Positions 27,414-35,576 of a stretch of 64,000 nt of DNA are shown here, in pieces; the first letter of the stretch is position 1; the number at the start of each line of letters is the position of its first letter. A model generated the notes under the pieces. It saw only the letters and a program-made list of their open reading frames with translations, did no database searches and was not told where the DNA came from. The translations under genes were made by a program, and so were the position numbers. This stretch comes from Marimonas lutisalis (GTDB lineage Bacteria; Pseudomonadota; Alphaproteobacteria; Rhodobacterales; Rhodobacteraceae): NCBI RefSeq assembly GCF_005434965.1, contig NZ_SKCI01000001.1:257370-321369 (forward strand). The letters are read 5' to 3'.

Positions 27414-27480
27414 CTGCGGGCATCCTGCAGCGGCGCGCACCCGGCGGATGGCCGGGGCGAGACAGGAAAAGGACGCGGGA

Positions 27481-28740
27481 ATGGGAATCGAGACAACGGA
27501 CACGCTCATCGTGGGCGGGGGGCAGGCGGGGCTTGCCATGAGTGCGCATCTGGGCAAGGCGGGTATTCCGCATATCGTTCTGGAGCGCGGCCGGATCGCC
27601 GAGCGCTGGCGCTCGGAGCGGTGGGATTCGCTGGTGATGAACGGGCCGGCCTGGCATGACCGCTTTCCCGAGCTGGAATTCGCGGGCGAGGATCCGGACG
27701 GGTTTCCGGACAAGGAGCGGGTGGCGGAGTATTTCGAGGAATTTGCCGGGCAGATCGATGCGCCCATTCGCTGTGGCGTCGAGGTGCTGAGCGTGACGCG
27801 CAACGCGGGGCGCGGCGGGTTCACGGCCGAGACCAGCGCCGGCGTGATCGAGGCGCAGCGGATCGTGGCGGCGACGGGGCCGTTCCAGGTGCCGGTGATC
27901 CCGCCCATCGTGCCCGAGGCGACCGACGTGGTGCAGATGCATTCGACGGGGTATCGCAACCCCGAGGACCTGCCCGAGGGGGCGGTTCTGGTGGTGGGGG
28001 CCGGATCGTCGGGCGTGCAGATTGCCGATGAGCTGAACCGGGCCGGGCGCAAGGTGTACCTGTCGGTGGGGCCGCATGACCGGCCGCCACGGCGTTATCG
28101 CGGGCGTGATTTCGTCTGGTGGCTGGGGGTGCTGAACCTGTGGGACATGGCCGCGCCGCCGAAAGGCGCCGAGCATGTGACCATTGCCGTCAGCGGCGCC
28201 CAGGGGGGCGAGACGGTGGATTTCCGCCGCCTTGGCAACGAGGGCATCACGCTGGTCGGCATGACCGAGACCTGCGAGGGCGGCGTGATGCGGTTTGCGC
28301 CGGACTTGGCCGAGAACATCCGGCGGGGCGACGAGAATTACCTGTCGTTGCTGGACCAGGCCGATGCCTATGTGGCGCGGATGGGGCTGGACCTGCCGGA
28401 AGAGCCCGAAGCGCGCGCCTTCGGCCCCGAACCGGACTGCGTGAGCGATCCGCTGCGTGCGCTGGACCTGGCCGAGGCCGGGGTGGGCACGATCATCTGG
28501 GCCACGGGCTTCAGGACGGATTATTCCTGGCTGAAGGTGGACGCCTTTGACGAGGCGGGCCGGCCGGTGCATCAACGGGGCGTGTCGCCCGAGCCGGGGG
28601 TCTATTTCCTGGGCCTGCCGTGGCTGTCGCGGCGGGGGTCGTCCTTTATCTGGGGGGTGTGGCATGACGCGAAGTTCCTGGCCGACCAGATCGGCATTCA
28701 GCGCGGCTATGGCGCCTATCGCGCGCCGGGGGAGGTGTGA
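27481..28740 (+). CDS. Flavin-containing monooxygenase-like NAD(P)/FAD oxidoreductase
   Basis: A 419-residue flavoprotein of the FMO/CzcO-like group. It has the N-terminal FAD motif VGGGQAGLAMSAHLGKAGI, the central NADPH motif VVGAGSSGVQIADELNRAG, and the C-terminal IIWATGFRTDYSWL (the ATGY/F-type motif). Members oxygenate N or S atoms or act as Baeyer-Villiger enzymes; the substrate is unknown. The start at 27481 follows AGGAAAAGGA. It is the first gene of the oxidative cluster and ends 3 bp before the Rieske oxygenase gene. Confidence 0.87.
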   Translation: MGIETTDTLIVGGGQAGLAMSAHLGKAGIPHIVLERGRIAERWRSERWDSLVMNGPAWHDRFPELEFAGEDPDGFPDKERVAEYFEEFAGQIDAPIRCGVEVLSVTRNAGRGGFTAETSAGVIEAQRIVAATGPFQVPVIPPIVPEATDVVQMHSTGYRNPEDLPEGAVLVVGAGSSGVQIADELNRAGRKVYLSVGPHDRPPRRYRGRDFVWWLGVLNLWDMAAPPKGAEHVTIAVSGAQGGETVDFRRLGNEGITLVGMTETCEGGVMRFAPDLAENIRRGDENYLSLLDQADAYVARMGLDLPEEPEARAFGPEPDCVSDPLRALDLAEAGVGTIIWATGFRTDYSWLKVDAFDEAGRPVHQRGVSPEPGVYFLGLPWLSRRGSSFIWGVWHDAKFLADQIGIQRGYGAYRAPGEV

Positions 28741-28743
28741 GCC

Positions 28744-29883
28744 ATGGCCAATGACCTGAGACCAAATGCGCTGGCCGAACTGGCCGAGAATGTGGGCCAG
28801 CCGTTCGAACAGGCCCGGGCGATGCCGCCGTCGGTCTATACCAGCCAGACCTTCATGGAGCGCGAGATTTCGGAGGTGTTTGCGAAGGAATGGTACTGCG
28901 TGGGCCGCGCCGATGCGCTACGCGAGGCGGGCGATTACGTGACCGCCGAGCTTGCCGGACAGCCGGTGGTGGTGCTGCGCGACCGCGAGGGCGGGTTGCG
29001 CGCGCTGTCGAACGTGTGCCTGCACCGGATGAGCACAATGCTGGAGGGGCGGGGCCATGCAAGGGCGCTGACCTGTCCCTATCATGGCTGGACCTACAAC
29101 CTTGATGGCAGCCTGCGCGGGGCGCCGGCGATGAGCCTGAACGAGGGGTTCTGCAAGGAGGCGTACAAGCTGCCCGCGGTGGGCTGCGAGGAATGGCTGG
29201 GCTGGGTGTTCATCACGCTGAACCCGGAGGCGCCGCCGGTGGCCCGGCAACTGGCCGAGGTCGGGGAGATGGTCGCGGGCTATGACATGACCAACTATTC
29301 CGAGAGCTTCTATGAGGAGCATGTCTGGGACACCAACTGGAAGGTGCTGGCCGAGAACTTCATGGAAAGCTATCACCTGCCGGTCTGTCACGCGGGCACG
29401 ATCGGGGGGTTGAGCAAGCTGGAGGAGATGGTCTGTCCGCCGGGGCGGGCGGCGTTCAACTACCATACGATCCTGAAGGACGATTCCTTGCGCATCGCGA
29501 TGGCGCATCCCAGCAATGACCGGCTGGAGGGTGACATGCGGCGCACCACCTTCCTGCTGGCGATTTACCCGTCGCTTCTGATCACGCTGACGCCGGGGTA
29601 TTTCTGGTACCTGAGCCTGCACCCGGTGGAACCGGGCAAGGTGCATATCCGTTTTGGCGGGGGCATGTCGGACGATTACAGGGGCGATGCGGATGCGCAG
29701 CAGAACTTCGTCGACCTGAAAACCCTGCTGGACGAGGTGAATGTCGAGGACCGGGGCTGTACGGAGAAGGTTTATGCCGGGTTGAAGTCGGGCCTTGCAA
29801 GGCCGGGCCACCTGAGCCACCTTGAACGCCCGAATTATGATTTCGCGAAATACCTTTACGCGAAGACATCTGGCCAAGGATGA
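28744..29883 (+). CDS. Rieske non-haem iron oxygenase, alpha subunit
   Basis: A 379-residue ring-hydroxylating/quaternary-amine-type oxygenase. The Rieske [2Fe-2S] ligands are Cys92/His94 (VCLHRMS) and Cys111/His114 (CPYHGW). The mononuclear iron site is His211 and His216 (ENFMESYHLPVCH) with Asp336 (NVEDRGC) as probable third ligand. The residue bridging to the Rieske centre is Glu208, not the usual Asp, as reported for the carnitine monooxygenase CntA. That hints at a quaternary or N-substituted substrate. Electrons would need a reductase; the only candidate nearby is the flavin reductase domain encoded next, whose start overlaps this stop by ATGA. Confidence 0.9.
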   Translation: MANDLRPNALAELAENVGQPFEQARAMPPSVYTSQTFMEREISEVFAKEWYCVGRADALREAGDYVTAELAGQPVVVLRDREGGLRALSNVCLHRMSTMLEGRGHARALTCPYHGWTYNLDGSLRGAPAMSLNEGFCKEAYKLPAVGCEEWLGWVFITLNPEAPPVARQLAEVGEMVAGYDMTNYSESFYEEHVWDTNWKVLAENFMESYHLPVCHAGTIGGLSKLEEMVCPPGRAAFNYHTILKDDSLRIAMAHPSNDRLEGDMRRTTFLLAIYPSLLITLTPGYFWYLSLHPVEPGKVHIRFGGGMSDDYRGDADAQQNFVDLKTLLDEVNVEDRGCTEKVYAGLKSGLARPGHLSHLERPNYDFAKYLYAKTSGQG

Positions 29884-31064
29884 ACGACATGACCAGCCCC
29901 CGTGCCGCCGAACTGCGAGACAGGTTCATCGGCGGCATGAGCCATGCGGCAAGCACGGTGAGCGTGGTGACCACGGACGGGCCCGCGGGGCGCGGTGGCG
30001 TGACCGTCTCGGCGATGTCGAGCGTGAGCGCGGACACCCCGCGCCCGACGCTGCTGATCTGTGTCAACGAAGCGAGCCCGGTGGCGGCGCAGATCATCGG
30101 GAACGGGGTGTTCTGCGTGAACATCCTGAAGGATGACCAGGCCTATATCTCCGACACTTTCGCGGGCCGGTTCAAGGACCAGGTCGCCGACAAGTTCGAC
30201 TGCGCGGACTGGCGGGCGATGCCGTCGGGCGCGCCGCGGGTGGTGGACCCCTTGGTCGGGTTCGACTGCCATGTCGTGTCGTCCGAGAAGGTGGGCACGC
30301 ATCACGTGTTCTTTGGCGAGGTGGACGATATTTTCATCGCCGAGGGCGGTTCGCCCCTGATCTATGCGCGCAGATCCTATAGCGCGGCGACGCGGATCGA
30401 GACGCCGGCCACGGTGACGGTGGCGGGCAAGGGCGCGCGCAGGCGGTTGACCGTGGGATGTTTCCACACCTTCGGGCCGGTCCTGTTGCCCGACATCGTC
30501 CGGCGCATGACCGAGGCCGACGAGGGGCTGCAGATCGAGTTGATCGAGGGCGATCAGCGCCGCGTGCAGGAGGCGGTGATGGCGGGCGAGGCCGACCTGG
30601 CGCTGCTCTACGACACCGGCCTGCCCGAGGGGTTGGAGGCGATGCTACTGACCGAGCTGAGCCCCTATGTGCTTCTGGCGCAGGATCATCCGCTGGCGGA
30701 AAAGCACACGCTGACGCCCGACGACCTGGCCGAGCATCCGATGATCCTGTTGGGGGAAAGCCCAAGCGGGGACTATTTCACATCGGTTCTGGAACGGGCG
30801 GGCGTGGCGCCGCGCGTGGCCTATCGCAGTTCGAATTTCGAGATGGTGCGGGGGCTGGTCGGCCAACGGCTGGGATTTGCCCTGCTGGCGACGCGGCCGG
30901 CGGCGAGCGTGAGTTATGACGGGCATCTTCTGGTGACCCGCCCGCTGATGGCGGATGTGGAGCCGACCCGGGTGATGCTGGCCACGCGGCGCGGCGTGCC
31001 GCCGAGCCCGCAGGCAGAGCGGTTCATCTGGTTCTGCCGCGACTATTTCGACCTGAATGAATGA
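29880..31064 (+). CDS. Flavin reductase domain fused to a LysR-type ligand-binding domain (no HTH)
   Basis: A 394-residue protein with an unusual architecture. Residues 1 to about 172 form an FMN-binding split barrel of the flavin reductase family (GGVTVSAMSSVSADTPRPTLLICV, then NGVFCVNILKDDQ). Residues about 188-390 form a LysR substrate-binding domain (GCFHTFGPVLLPDIVRRM, HPMILLGESPSGDYF, GLVGQRLGFALLATRP). No helix-turn-helix is encoded. The frame is open throughout and there is no plausible internal stop or frameshift. It may supply FMNH2 or electrons to the neighbouring oxygenases under ligand control; that is inference. It is coupled to the Rieske gene by ATGA. Confidence 0.88.
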   Translation: MNDMTSPRAAELRDRFIGGMSHAASTVSVVTTDGPAGRGGVTVSAMSSVSADTPRPTLLICVNEASPVAAQIIGNGVFCVNILKDDQAYISDTFAGRFKDQVADKFDCADWRAMPSGAPRVVDPLVGFDCHVVSSEKVGTHHVFFGEVDDIFIAEGGSPLIYARRSYSAATRIETPATVTVAGKGARRRLTVGCFHTFGPVLLPDIVRRMTEADEGLQIELIEGDQRRVQEAVMAGEADLALLYDTGLPEGLEAMLLTELSPYVLLAQDHPLAEKHTLTPDDLAEHPMILLGESPSGDYFTSVLERAGVAPRVAYRSSNFEMVRGLVGQRLGFALLATRPAASVSYDGHLLVTRPLMADVEPTRVMLATRRGVPPSPQAERFIWFCRDYFDLNE

Positions 31065-31106
31065 CGCGCGGTGCGTTTGGAGCGCACCGAATTGGGAGCT
31101 GTGACG

Positions 31107-31523
31107 ATGGCGCATGAACGAATTCGCAAGTTCAACACGAAAGACACCTACCCTGAACAGAATCTGGACAATGACCTGTGCCAGGCGGTGGTCACGCGGG
31201 GCGGGCGCACGGTGTGGATGCGCGGGCAATGTCCGCAGAACCTGGACGATGCGAGGAACATCGACAGCCATGACCCGGCCGAGCAGACCCACAAGGTGAT
31301 GCAGAACATCCGCCAGCTGATCGAGGAGGCCGGCGGCAGCATGGAGCACCTGGTGAAGGTGGTGGTCTACATCACCGATGTGCGCCACCGCGAGGCTGTG
31401 TACCGGACGATGGGGGAATACATCAAAGGGGTCTACCCGGTTTCGACCGGGCTGGTGGTGCAGGCGCTGGCGCGGCCCGAGTGGCTGGTCGAGATCGACG
31501 CTACGGCGGTGATTCCGGATTGA
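31107..31523 (+). CDS. RidA family protein
   Basis: A 138-residue YjgF/YER057c/UK114 protein. RidA enzymes deaminate reactive enamine/imine intermediates or, in catabolic subfamilies, hydrolyse pathway intermediates. Typical segments are VWMRGQCPQNLDDARN, QTHKVMQNIRQLIEEAGGSMEHLVKVVVYITDVRHREAVYRTMGEY (shown in part) and a terminal WLVEIDATAVI. The canonical Arg is replaced or shifted, so it may be a Rid2-7-type protein. The ATG at 31107 follows GGGAG; an in-frame GTG at 31071 is less likely. It sits between the reductase fusion and DUF1028. Confidence 0.87.
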   Translation: MAHERIRKFNTKDTYPEQNLDNDLCQAVVTRGGRTVWMRGQCPQNLDDARNIDSHDPAEQTHKVMQNIRQLIEEAGGSMEHLVKVVVYITDVRHREAVYRTMGEYIKGVYPVSTGLVVQALARPEWLVEIDATAVIPD

Positions 31524-31588: not shown

Positions 31589-32266
31589 ATGACATTTTCA
31601 CTGGTGGCGCGTTGTGCGGAGACGGGCATGTTCGGCGTTGCGATTTCATCGTCGTCGCCGGCGGTGGCGGCGCGCTGTGCTTATGCGCGCGCGGGTGTCG
31701 GCGCGGTGGCGAGCCAGAACGTGACCGACCCGACGCTGGGGCCGTTGGCGCTGGATGTGATGGGACGGGGCCTGAGCGCGGGCGAAGCGATCGAGGAGGT
31801 GCAGCGCTGCGGGCGTTACATCGAGTACCGGCAGGTGCTGGCAATCGACGGGCAGGGGCGCACGGCGATCCATTCAGGGCCCAATTCGCTGGGGATCTGG
31901 ACCCAGGCCGAGGGCCGCGACGTGGCCAGTGGTGGCAACCTTCTGGCCAATGACGGCGTGCCGGCGGCGATCGTGGCGGGGTTCGAGGCGGCGGAGGGCC
32001 ACCTGGGCGACCGGCTGATTGCCGCGATGCGCGCGGGGCTGGCAGCGGGCGGCGAGGCAGGACCGGTGCATTCGGCGGGCCTCTTGCTGGTCGATGACGT
32101 GTCCTGGCCGGTCGCCGAGCTGCGATGCGACTGGATCGACGAGGGCTGCCCGATCGAGGCGGTGGCGCGGGCCTGGGAGGTCTACAAGCCGCAGCTGCGC
32201 GACTACGTGACCCGGGCGCTGAACCCCGAGGCGGCGCCGTCTTATGGAGTGCCGGGGGACGAATGA
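31589..32266 (+). CDS. DUF1028 family (Ntn-hydrolase-like) protein
   Basis: A 225-residue protein starting MTFSLVARCAETGMFGVAISSSSPAVAARC, with the DUF1028 features VGAVASQNVTDPTLGP and VASGGNLLAND. The family has an Ntn-hydrolase-like fold and is often encoded beside RidA and M20 peptidase genes in amino-acid or amide degradation clusters. Exact activity is unknown; hydrolysis of an amide-type intermediate is a reasonable inference. It overlaps the LysR gene start by ATGA. Start at 31589 follows a GGGGAG sequence. Confidence 0.87.
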   Translation: MTFSLVARCAETGMFGVAISSSSPAVAARCAYARAGVGAVASQNVTDPTLGPLALDVMGRGLSAGEAIEEVQRCGRYIEYRQVLAIDGQGRTAIHSGPNSLGIWTQAEGRDVASGGNLLANDGVPAAIVAGFEAAEGHLGDRLIAAMRAGLAAGGEAGPVHSAGLLLVDDVSWPVAELRCDWIDEGCPIEAVARAWEVYKPQLRDYVTRALNPEAAPSYGVPGDE

Positions 32267-33201
32267 ACCGCGTCACGCTGCGCCAGCTGGAATATTTCGC
32301 GGCCGTCGGCAAGACCGGCTCGATCGCGCGGGCGGCGGAACTGGTGAATGTCTCGTCGCCGTCGATCTCGACCGCGATCGCACAGTTGGAGGAAGCGTTG
32401 GGGCTGACGCTCTTTGTGCGAAAGCGCGCGCAGGGGCTGTCGCTGACCCAGGCGGGGCGGCAGATGCTGGCGCAGGCGGGCCGGGTGCTGGACGAGGCCG
32501 AGGCGCTGAACCGGTTGGCCGGCGATATCGCGGGCACGGTGCGCGGGCCGCTGGCGGTGGGCTGCCTGCTTACCTTCGCGCAGATCATCCTGCCCGGGCT
32601 GCGGCGCGGGTTCGAAAGCCGCTATCCCGATGTGCAGGTGCGCCAGTTCGAGTTGCATCAGCTGGAGATTTTCGAACGGCTGCGCAGCGCCGAAATCGAT
32701 GTCGCGCTGAGCTATGACCTGGATATCCCGCAGGATCTGCACTTCGTGCCGCTGGTGGCGTTGCGGCCCTTTGCGGTGATGGCGCGATCGCACCCGCTGG
32801 CGGAGCTGCCCGAGGTCACGGTGGAGGACCTGAAAGATCATCCGATGATCCTGCTGGATCTGCCGCACTCGGCCGAGTATTTCCTGTCGTTCTTTGCCGA
32901 GACGGGCGCGCGGCCGAAAATCGCTGAGCGCACGCGCGACATGGCGGTGATGCGCAGCCTGGTGGCCAATGGCTATGGCTATGGCATCGCCAATATCCGC
33001 CCGCTGAGCGACCGCGCGCCGGACGGCAAGCCGCTGGTCTTCGTGCCGCTGGCGGGTGGGGTGCGGCCGATGCAGCTGGGCCTGGTGATGGCAAAGGGGG
33101 CCGAGGCGCTGCTGGGCATCCGGGCCTTTGTCGCGCATGCGCGGGATTATGTGACGGCTGGCAATGTGCCGGGAATCGAGCCGGCGGGAGAGAGAGCATG
33201 A
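32263..33201 (+). CDS. LysR family transcriptional regulator
   Basis: A 312-residue regulator. The N-terminal winged HTH (LRQLEYFAAVGKTGSIARAAELVNVSSPSIS, shown in pieces as TGSIARAAELVNVS) is followed by a linker helix and a substrate-binding domain from about residue 90. Its ligand domain shares HPMILLDLPHSAEYFLSFFAETG with HPMILLGESPSGDYFTSVLERAG of the upstream reductase fusion, so both probably belong to one subfamily. Most likely it controls this cluster through the dyads at 27361-27413. Unlike typical LysR genes it is co-directional and embedded in the operon (4-bp overlaps on both sides). Confidence 0.92.
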   Translation: MNRVTLRQLEYFAAVGKTGSIARAAELVNVSSPSISTAIAQLEEALGLTLFVRKRAQGLSLTQAGRQMLAQAGRVLDEAEALNRLAGDIAGTVRGPLAVGCLLTFAQIILPGLRRGFESRYPDVQVRQFELHQLEIFERLRSAEIDVALSYDLDIPQDLHFVPLVALRPFAVMARSHPLAELPEVTVEDLKDHPMILLDLPHSAEYFLSFFAETGARPKIAERTRDMAVMRSLVANGYGYGIANIRPLSDRAPDGKPLVFVPLAGGVRPMQLGLVMAKGAEALLGIRAFVAHARDYVTAGNVPGIEPAGERA

Positions 33202-34334
33202 CGCGCACGCTGGAGCACCTGGAGCGGTTGATCGGGTTTCCATCGCTGACCGACACCCCCAATGGCGAGATCATCGGTTATATCGAAAACGTGCTGGCGG
33301 CAGTGGGCGCGCGGGTTTGGCGGATCGAAGCGCAAAGCGGGGATCGCGCCGGGATTTTCGCCTCGGTCGGGCCGGAGGGCCCAGGGGGTGTGATGTTATC
33401 GGGCCATGTCGACGTGGTGCCGGTGGACGGACAGGACTGGACCGCGGATCCCTTTGAACTGCGGCGCGAGGGGAGCCGCGTCTATGGGCGGGGCACGACC
33501 GACATGAAGGGGTTCCTGGCGGCGATGCTGAGCGCGGCGGAACGTGCAGAAGGGTTGAAGCAGCCGCTGAAACTGGCGTTTTCGTGGGATGAGGAGATCG
33601 GATGTCGCGGGATCCCGGAGATGCTGGCGCAGATCGACGAAACGGTGGGGCGACCCGATATCTGTATCGTGGGCGAGCCGACGCAGATGCAGGTTGCCAC
33701 GGGACACAAAGGCAAGACGGCGCTGCGCGCGGTGGCAAGGGGCGAGGCCGGGCATTCATCGGATGCGCCGGACTATGCGAACGCGCTGCACCTGGCGGCG
33801 GATTTCATCGGGGCGCTTCGGCAGGAACAGGCGCGGTTGATGCGCGAGGGTGCGCGCGAGGCGGGCTATTCGACGCCCTTCTCGACGGTGCATGCGGGGG
33901 TGATGCAGGGGGGGAGGGCGCTGAACATCGTGCCGGACCGCGCCGAGATCATGTTCGAGATCCGCAACCTGGCGGCGGATGCACCCGGAGCGATCATCGC
34001 CCGGCTGCGCGAGGCGGGGCGGGAGATCGCGGCGCGAACCGGCGGGGCGGCATCGCTGGAGATCGAGGAGACGGGCGGCTATCCGGGGCTGGCGACGCCC
34101 GAAGACAGCGCGGCGCTGGCTTTGTGCCAGTCCCTTCTGCCTGAGGCCGAGACCATAAAGGTGTCTTATGGCACCGAGGCCGGGCATTTCGCGGCACATG
34201 GGATCGCATCGGTTGTGTGCGGGCCGGGATCAATGGCGCAGGGACACAAGCCTGACGAGTTCATCGAGGCCGACCAGCTGGTGCAGTGCGATGCGATGCT
34301 GGATCGGATGCTGGCACGGCTAAGGGCAGGGTGA
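33198..34334 (+). CDS. M20 family metallopeptidase, acetylornithine deacetylase (ArgE)-like
   Basis: A 378-residue zinc-dependent amidohydrolase. Metal-binding and catalytic motifs are SGHVDVVP, GRGTTDMKGFLAAML, WDEEIGCRG (Glu-Glu pair) and a C-terminal GPGSMAQGHKPDEFIEAD. The dimerisation insertion GHKGKTALRAVARGEAGHSS is in mid-protein. It resembles ArgE-type N-acyl-amino-acid deacylases. In this context, after FMO, Rieske, RidA and DUF1028, it likely removes an acyl group from a nitrogen compound rather than serving arginine synthesis. It overlaps the LysR stop by 4 bp and is the last gene of the operon. Confidence 0.9.
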   Translation: MTRTLEHLERLIGFPSLTDTPNGEIIGYIENVLAAVGARVWRIEAQSGDRAGIFASVGPEGPGGVMLSGHVDVVPVDGQDWTADPFELRREGSRVYGRGTTDMKGFLAAMLSAAERAEGLKQPLKLAFSWDEEIGCRGIPEMLAQIDETVGRPDICIVGEPTQMQVATGHKGKTALRAVARGEAGHSSDAPDYANALHLAADFIGALRQEQARLMREGAREAGYSTPFSTVHAGVMQGGRALNIVPDRAEIMFEIRNLAADAPGAIIARLREAGREIAARTGGAASLEIEETGGYPGLATPEDSAALALCQSLLPEAETIKVSYGTEAGHFAAHGIASVVCGPGSMAQGHKPDEFIEADQLVQCDAMLDRMLARLRAG

Positions 34335-34691: not shown

Positions 34692-35576
34692 TCAACGCCG
34701 GTGAATGCCGCCTTCGTCCATTTCGATCAGCACTTCATCGGCATCGTTTCCGGGACCATGCAGTGGATCGGGCAGAATGCCGAGCCCCATGGCCAGCGTG
34801 GCCAGTTCCGTCCGGGTGCTCAGGCCGGTTTTCTCCATCAGCGTGTGCAGACGCTGGCGCACAGCGGAGATGGAAATTCCGAGTTGATCGGCGATCTGTT
34901 TGTCCTGGAGGCCCTGCCCGATCAGTTCGAGCAGTTCCGTTTGCTTGGGCGAGACGTGGTTGCGTTCGGGAAACTCGGCGGCGAAATGCATCACGTAGCG
35001 TTGATGCGCGGCCAGGGCGGCGACGTTCAGTGTCCAGCCGTGGGCCTTGACGATGGCTATCATGTCACGTCGAGAGTGATTGCCCGAAAAGGTGAGCAGC
35101 GCGGCCTGCGGCGGGGCATGCACGCGCAACGGGATGGAAAATCCCGCGCGGATGCCGTGCTTGGCGGCGCGGCGCAGAATCTCGGCCCGCTTGGCGGGGA
35201 TATGATGGTATTCGTCGATGAACTCGATCCCGACCATGATCGGTGTCAGGTGGTGCATGGCGTGGCTGCGGAAATAGGACCAGCGGTGCAGATCGGGATC
35301 GCGGTTGAGTTCGTTCAGCCAGGTCGAATCGTAGGAGGTGCGGATGAACAGCGTCTTGCGGAAATCGGCCAGCGAACTGGCCGAGATGAAGTCGATATAG
35401 GGCAGGTTCAGCTGCTTGCCGAGCCCGACGATCAGGGCCCAGACATCACGCGAATGCCCGGTGGTTTCGAGATCCGCCAGGAAGCGGTGCAGGAGCTCGG
35501 GCGTGTAGCGCTCGGCTTCAATCAGCCTGCGTTCCGGGCCCGGACGATCCACAGGGTCAGCCCGTTTCGTGTTCAA
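34692..35576 (-). CDS. LuxR family regulator with autoinducer-binding domain
   Basis: A 294-residue quorum-sensing type regulator. It has an N-terminal autoinducer-binding domain (about residues 30-190, with YIDFISASS, YDSTWLNELNRD and AGFSIPLRVHAP) and a C-terminal GerE-type HTH (VSPKQTELLELIGQGLQDKQIADQLGISISAVRQRL, shown by its LGISISAVRQRL part). There is no luxI in this window, so it may be a solo receptor. The reading frame has a TTG as first start at 35576, overlapping the upstream gene by 20 bp; the true start is uncertain. A lux-box-like dyad lies beyond its 3' end. Confidence 0.87.
   Translation of the reverse strand: MNTKRADPVDRPGPERRLIEAERYTPELLHRFLADLETTGHSRDVWALIVGLGKQLNLPYIDFISASSLADFRKTLFIRTSYDSTWLNELNRDPDLHRWSYFRSHAMHHLTPIMVGIEFIDEYHHIPAKRAEILRRAAKHGIRAGFSIPLRVHAPPQAALLTFSGNHSRRDMIAIVKAHGWTLNVAALAAHQRYVMHFAAEFPERNHVSPKQTELLELIGQGLQDKQIADQLGISISAVRQRLHTLMEKTGLSTRTELATLAMGLGILPDPLHGPGNDADEVLIEMDEGGIHRR

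Follow-up and report, generated by a model that had tools for sequence, protein, structure and literature searches.

The closest described system is AbHpaC (C1), the reductase of the p-hydroxyphenylacetate 3-hydroxylase of Acinetobacter baumannii, in which a C-terminal MarR domain is self-inhibitory and 4-HPA boosts flavin reduction at least 30-fold (PMC10816480). HpaB-class oxygenases depend on reduced flavin supplied by a separate reductase (PMC6165268). Here, a gene in a 64,000-nucleotide stretch of Marimonas lutisalis DNA (the window) was analyzed, in which a flavin reductase is joined to the effector domain of a LysR regulator. The principle of a sensor-gated flavin reductase is already known from C1; the LysR version is conserved and, as far as could be searched, uncharacterized. 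A literature search for the flavin reductase-LysR architecture returned no paper describing it, and this absence is weak evidence, with subscription literature thinly covered. The statement of an earlier note on this DNA, that no characterized protein of this design is known, stands for the LysR version within the same limits, but in function C1, with its MarR domain, provides a close precedent.

The fusion gene and its operon

Coordinates are collected in Table 1. The fusion ORF has zero internal stops and its ATG lies within the stop codon of the Rieske gene (ATGA overlap); Met4 (29889), which is better spaced from an upstream AAGG, may be the true start. With hmmscan against Pfam, Flavin_Reduct scored 108.3 bits against a gathering score of 27 (E 5e-31, profile positions 1-151 of 153) and LysR_substrate 144.9 bits against 28 (E 3e-42, positions 3-208 of 209); HTH_1 gave no match in the protein, the N-terminus of which is the reductase. 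Because both domains are full-length at these E values, chance was ruled out. The nearest NCBIfam models for the reductase half were RutF (134.8 bits, cut-off 254.75, E 2e-39) and HpaC (110.5 bits, cut-off 205.95, E 7e-32), both well below equivalog level, and the C1-HPAH reductase model NF045919 reached 45.4 bits, under its cut-off of 340. Alignment of the fusions showed that the flavin-site motif GVTVSAMSSVSAD and a G-T/S-H...G.V motif are kept, as are EGDQ/H, EMVRGLVG.GLGY and YDG in the sensor half.

An AlphaFold2 model was built from 14 aligned fusions. Mean pLDDT was 76, falling to ~30 in the linker, and a pTM of 0.54 makes the relative placement of the domains unreliable. Using VIA-align, model residues 24-167 matched the flavin reductases TftC (3k86) and CobR (3cb0), each at Z 20.9, and residues 183-394 matched the LysR effector domains 3fzv (Z 25.9), 2ql3 (Z 25.7) and HinK (6m5f, Z 25.4). 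The ORF coordinates in the earlier note are correct, its split barrel (residues 1-172) and HTH-less LysR domain (188-390) agree with Pfam within a few residues, its LysR assignment of the C-terminal half was borne out by domain score and structural match alike, and the model that it proposed fits both folds, with domain packing that is not usable.

Table 1. Features of the fusion gene and neighboring genes, in window positions.
Feature	Position	Strand	Basis
FMO-type flavin monooxygenase, MSMEG_0569-like (below model cut-off), two Rossmann motifs	27475..28740	+	Profile matches, sequence
Rieske oxygenase alpha subunit resembling GbcA (below cut-off); stop codon overlaps start of fusion	28744..29883	+	Profile matches
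Fusion gene, flavin reductase and LysR substrate-binding domain, 394 aa	29880..31064	+	Open frame, conserved in relatives
Flavin_Reduct (split-barrel) domain, residues 20-169	29937..30386	+	Pfam PF01613, 108 bits; VIA-align Z 20.9
Linker, residues 170-184	30387..30431	+	Poor conservation, low pLDDT
LysR effector (substrate-binding) domain, residues 185-390, no HTH	30432..31049	+	Pfam PF03466, 145 bits; VIA-align
RidA family protein	31107..31523	+	ORF opens at 31071; start 31107 picked from orthologue comparison
DUF1028 protein	31589..32266	+	Profile match
Complete LysR regulator of the operon (HTH_1 and LysR_substrate)	32263..33201	+	Profile matches
M20 deacylase (acetylornithine-deacetylase-like)	33198..34334	+	Profile matches
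Downstream of the operon: LuxR-type protein, autoinducer-binding and GerE domains	34692-35576	-	

The window operon runs FMO, Rieske, fusion, RidA, DUF1028, LysR, M20 deacylase. The FMO, which has FAD and NAD(P)H motifs of its own, was found in 112 of 395 sampled genomes of the window's family (over a quarter). The effector domains of the operon LysR and the fusion are ~33% identical and have many, not all, conserved positions in common. The presence of RidA and the M20 deacylase suggests that a nitrogen-containing substrate may be converted by way of an enamine or imine and then or also an N-acylated intermediate. Homarine would be one speculative candidate for the substrate. A literature search on the pathway (homarine, trigonelline, pyrrole-2-carboxylate) yielded nothing usable.

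Distribution and operon types

Thirty distinct full-length fusions were recovered from the window and related loci, after dropping duplicates and one mis-extracted row, so the search for both domains and for proteins of this architecture, suggested in the earlier note, gave a family. The joined frame was free of stops in 13 GTDB contigs. The fusion was present in 19 of the 395 family genomes and intact in 18, the remaining copy (G295) having a stop within the reductase half; a phylum-wide sample (n = 398) added four matches, three of them full fusions. Further copies are on named plasmids of Paracoccus, Sinorhizobium and Aminobacter. Several of these are labelled by NCBI annotation merely as 'LysR substrate-binding domain-containing protein', and as this label names the LysR domain alone the enzyme half is hidden.

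Relatives of the operon were sorted into types by gene content. Type A has the FMO (mostly with Rieske), RidA, DUF1028 and LysR without the fusion (loci L073-L079). Type B, that of the window, has the order FMO-Rieske-fusion-RidA-DUF1028 at seven loci (L021, L022, L023, L025, L053, L069, L070). Type C combines HpaB, with or without Rieske, and the fusion (L026, L029, L032, L033, L055-L062), in the order HpaB-RidA-DUF1028-ArgE-LysR-fusion on Paracoccus plasmids. Type D has HpaB and a sensorless reductase (L087, L088, and L095, an annotated Rhizobium plasmid with HpaB-flavin reductase-RidA), and type E has HpaB without a linked reductase (L080, L085, L086, L089, L090). A variant of type D carries, in the same slot, an in-frame reductase-RidA fusion with no LysR domain (L067, 7798-8818, +; L084, from 8799, +).

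Type F, from Hyphomicrobiales, consists of a glutamine-synthetase-like gene, the fusion and an APC permease (L064-L066, L093), with an acyl-CoA-dehydrogenase-family protein and a second flavin reductase close by; it is a different pathway using the same protein design. These fusions are distant, at ~37% identity (L064, 7041-8213, +; L093, 6995-8173, +). Type G occupies the window's chromosomal site and keeps an intact fusion, in one genome with the rest of the operon gone (G373, locus L054, 7706-8998, +) and in another with the Rieske gene frame-broken (G009, locus L068, 7663-8976, -).

Partner oxygenase

The ~510-residue protein upstream of type C fusions is HpaB (Pfam PF11794 and PF03241), encoded next to the fusion on its upstream side or separated from it by a single Rieske gene (L026, L029, L032, L033, L055-L059, L061, L062). 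Across the 395 family genomes, the fusion was found in 10 of 16 with HpaB versus 9 of 379 without (Fisher P 3e-11). Its association with the FMO was weak (11 of 112 FMO genomes versus 8 of 283 others, P 0.007; adjacent in five only). The ancestral partner thus looks like an HpaB-type flavin-dependent monooxygenase. Three of the six HpaB genomes without the fusion (G083, G228, G347) have a sensorless reductase, which means that the pathway can do without gating. The genome that holds the window gave no HpaB match at E 0.001; the fusion is accompanied there by two other Flavin_Reduct proteins (three domains in total) and by two luciferase-like proteins, which are possible acceptors of reduced flavin.

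The earlier note suggested that the fusion is a ligand-gated supplier of reduced flavin or electrons to the oxygenases encoded immediately upstream. Gating would still be its most sensible role, by analogy with AbHpaC, but direct feeding of the FMO and Rieske oxygenases is unlikely. The genes are adjacent, with overlapping stop and start codons, and their order is repeated in the seven type B loci. Against this, the same FMO and Rieske genes occur without the fusion in orthologous operons (L073-L076, L078, L079), so that their supply by the fusion is unproven in the window, and 101 of the 112 FMO genomes lack it. Moreover, an FMO-type enzyme reduces the FAD that it carries, and the usual electron donors of Rieske enzymes are iron-sulphur or flavin-iron-sulphur reductases.

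Selection and phylogeny

Values of dN/dS were calculated as Nei-Gojobori medians across five close operons of the window clade and are rough pairwise values. The reductase half had a value of 0.13 and the fused sensor 0.26, compared with 0.13 for the HTH and 0.32 for the effector domain of the operon LysR, the last with a wide range and with one locus lacking that LysR. Both halves of the fusion are under purifying selection, and constraint on the sensor half matches that on a genuine LysR sensor.

In the reductase tree, 26 operon fusions formed one clade (96/95) beside solo reductases of equivalent operons, which fits the addition of a sensor to an existing HpaB reductase. Three Hyphomicrobiales-type fusions and L048 were of uncertain placement (AU p 0.057) and may have a separate origin. 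The same 26 fusions grouped in the sensor tree with modest support (81), and the operon LysR formed a separate clade (96); the fused sensor is therefore not a recent copy of the neighboring regulator. Operon types were interleaved in the RidA+DUF1028 tree and in the Rieske tree, which indicates repeated exchange. A simple swap of HpaB for FMO was weakened as an account of the window operon by these interleaved trees and by FMO and HpaB standing side by side in two genomes (G131, G223).

It is quite unlikely that the fusion is a leftover of an HpaB system, with a decaying or passive sensor and generic flavin reduction alone left. Such a reading would suit a genome without HpaB and with additional flavin reductases, as well as the orphan copies in G373 and G009 and the broken copy in G295, but the sensor's dN/dS resembles that of a working LysR sensor and the frame is intact in every copy except that of G295.

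Proposed function

The reading that we favor, with somewhat better than even confidence, is that the fusion is an NAD(P)H:flavin reductase for two-component flavin monooxygenases in which the LysR effector domain would act as an allosteric gate, as the MarR domain does in AbHpaC. Since some 30 distinct relatives keep the fusion, in most cases next to an oxygenase that needs reduced flavin, the sensor probably turns the enzyme on when a nutrient is present. In such a scheme the LysR domain would hold the reductase at low activity until this domain binds a ligand, which is probably the substrate of the pathway or one of its early intermediates; binding would bring both lobes of the LysR domain together and release the reductase, and NAD(P)H and O2 would not be wasted on free reduced flavin. 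As HpaB is absent from the window lineage, with an FMO-type enzyme in the operon, and the reductase is nevertheless under selection, the latter must serve a different acceptor; candidates in the window's genome are the FMO and Rieske protein of the operon and flavin-dependent oxygenases encoded elsewhere, e.g., either of the two luciferase-like proteins. The intact fusions kept after operon loss (G373) or breakage (G009) run counter to the gating scheme.

The LysR domain could instead be no gate but a binding partner of the operon's full LysR through dimerization surfaces common to both; the enzyme would then tune transcription as a decoy or redox-linked co-regulator. LysR effector domains assemble as dimers and tetramers, and the operon also encodes a complete LysR whose effector domain is related to the fused one; yet the Hyphomicrobiales fusions and the orphan fusion of G373 have no neighboring LysR, and the fused and operon effector domains fall in separate clades, which leaves the co-regulator role quite improbable. 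That a sequencing or assembly error fused two adjacent genes, or that the ORF is a pseudogene, can be dismissed as practically impossible, because the same stop-free joined frame, called clean in the earlier note, recurs in GTDB contigs, family genomes and named plasmids, in 30 distinct full-length homologues from independent assemblies and in more on complete plasmids.

More broadly, and somewhat short of an even chance in our estimate, a LysR effector domain may have been freed from DNA control to become an enzyme gate, so that transcription factor sensors would have been recruited at least twice by the flavin reductases of two-component monooxygenases (MarR in C1, LysR here), and in the window's lineage the gated reductase would have outlived its oxygenase and gained a new acceptor. 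If the gate is real, the fusion would allow a direct test of ligand signalling by a LysR effector domain without a DNA-binding domain, and the occurrence of the same operon with a plain reductase, a reductase-RidA or a reductase-LysR fusion would be a natural comparison of the benefit of gating. The sensor could then report the substrate of the pathway that is marked by the widespread FMO.

Comparison with known systems

The single-domain reductases HpaC, TftC, RutF and CobR have the fold and flavin motif in common with the fusion (TftC shows 44-45% identity across the domain) but are without a sensor domain. The LysR regulators HinK (6m5f), 3fzv and 2ql3 have effector domains 32-36% identical to that of the fusion, at Z 24-26 over ~200 residues, and that of CynR is 20% identical; unlike them, the fusion lacks the HTH and linker helix and carries the effector domain on an enzyme. 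In the operon of Rhizobium sp. ACO-34A plasmid pRACO34Ac (HpaB-flavin reductase-RidA-DUF1028-LysR), a reductase 53% identical to that of the fusion occupies the same slot, without a LysR domain. With AbHpaC (PDB 5zc2, 5zyr) the fusion shares an N-terminal flavin reductase of the same superfamily (match over residues 20-170, E 6e-6), a C-terminal domain that comes from a transcription factor and, as proposed here, service to a two-component monooxygenase. The reductase halves are distant, and C1 is known biochemically whereas the fusion is known from sequence; the sensor of C1 is a MarR domain, and that of the fusion is an unrelated LysR effector domain.
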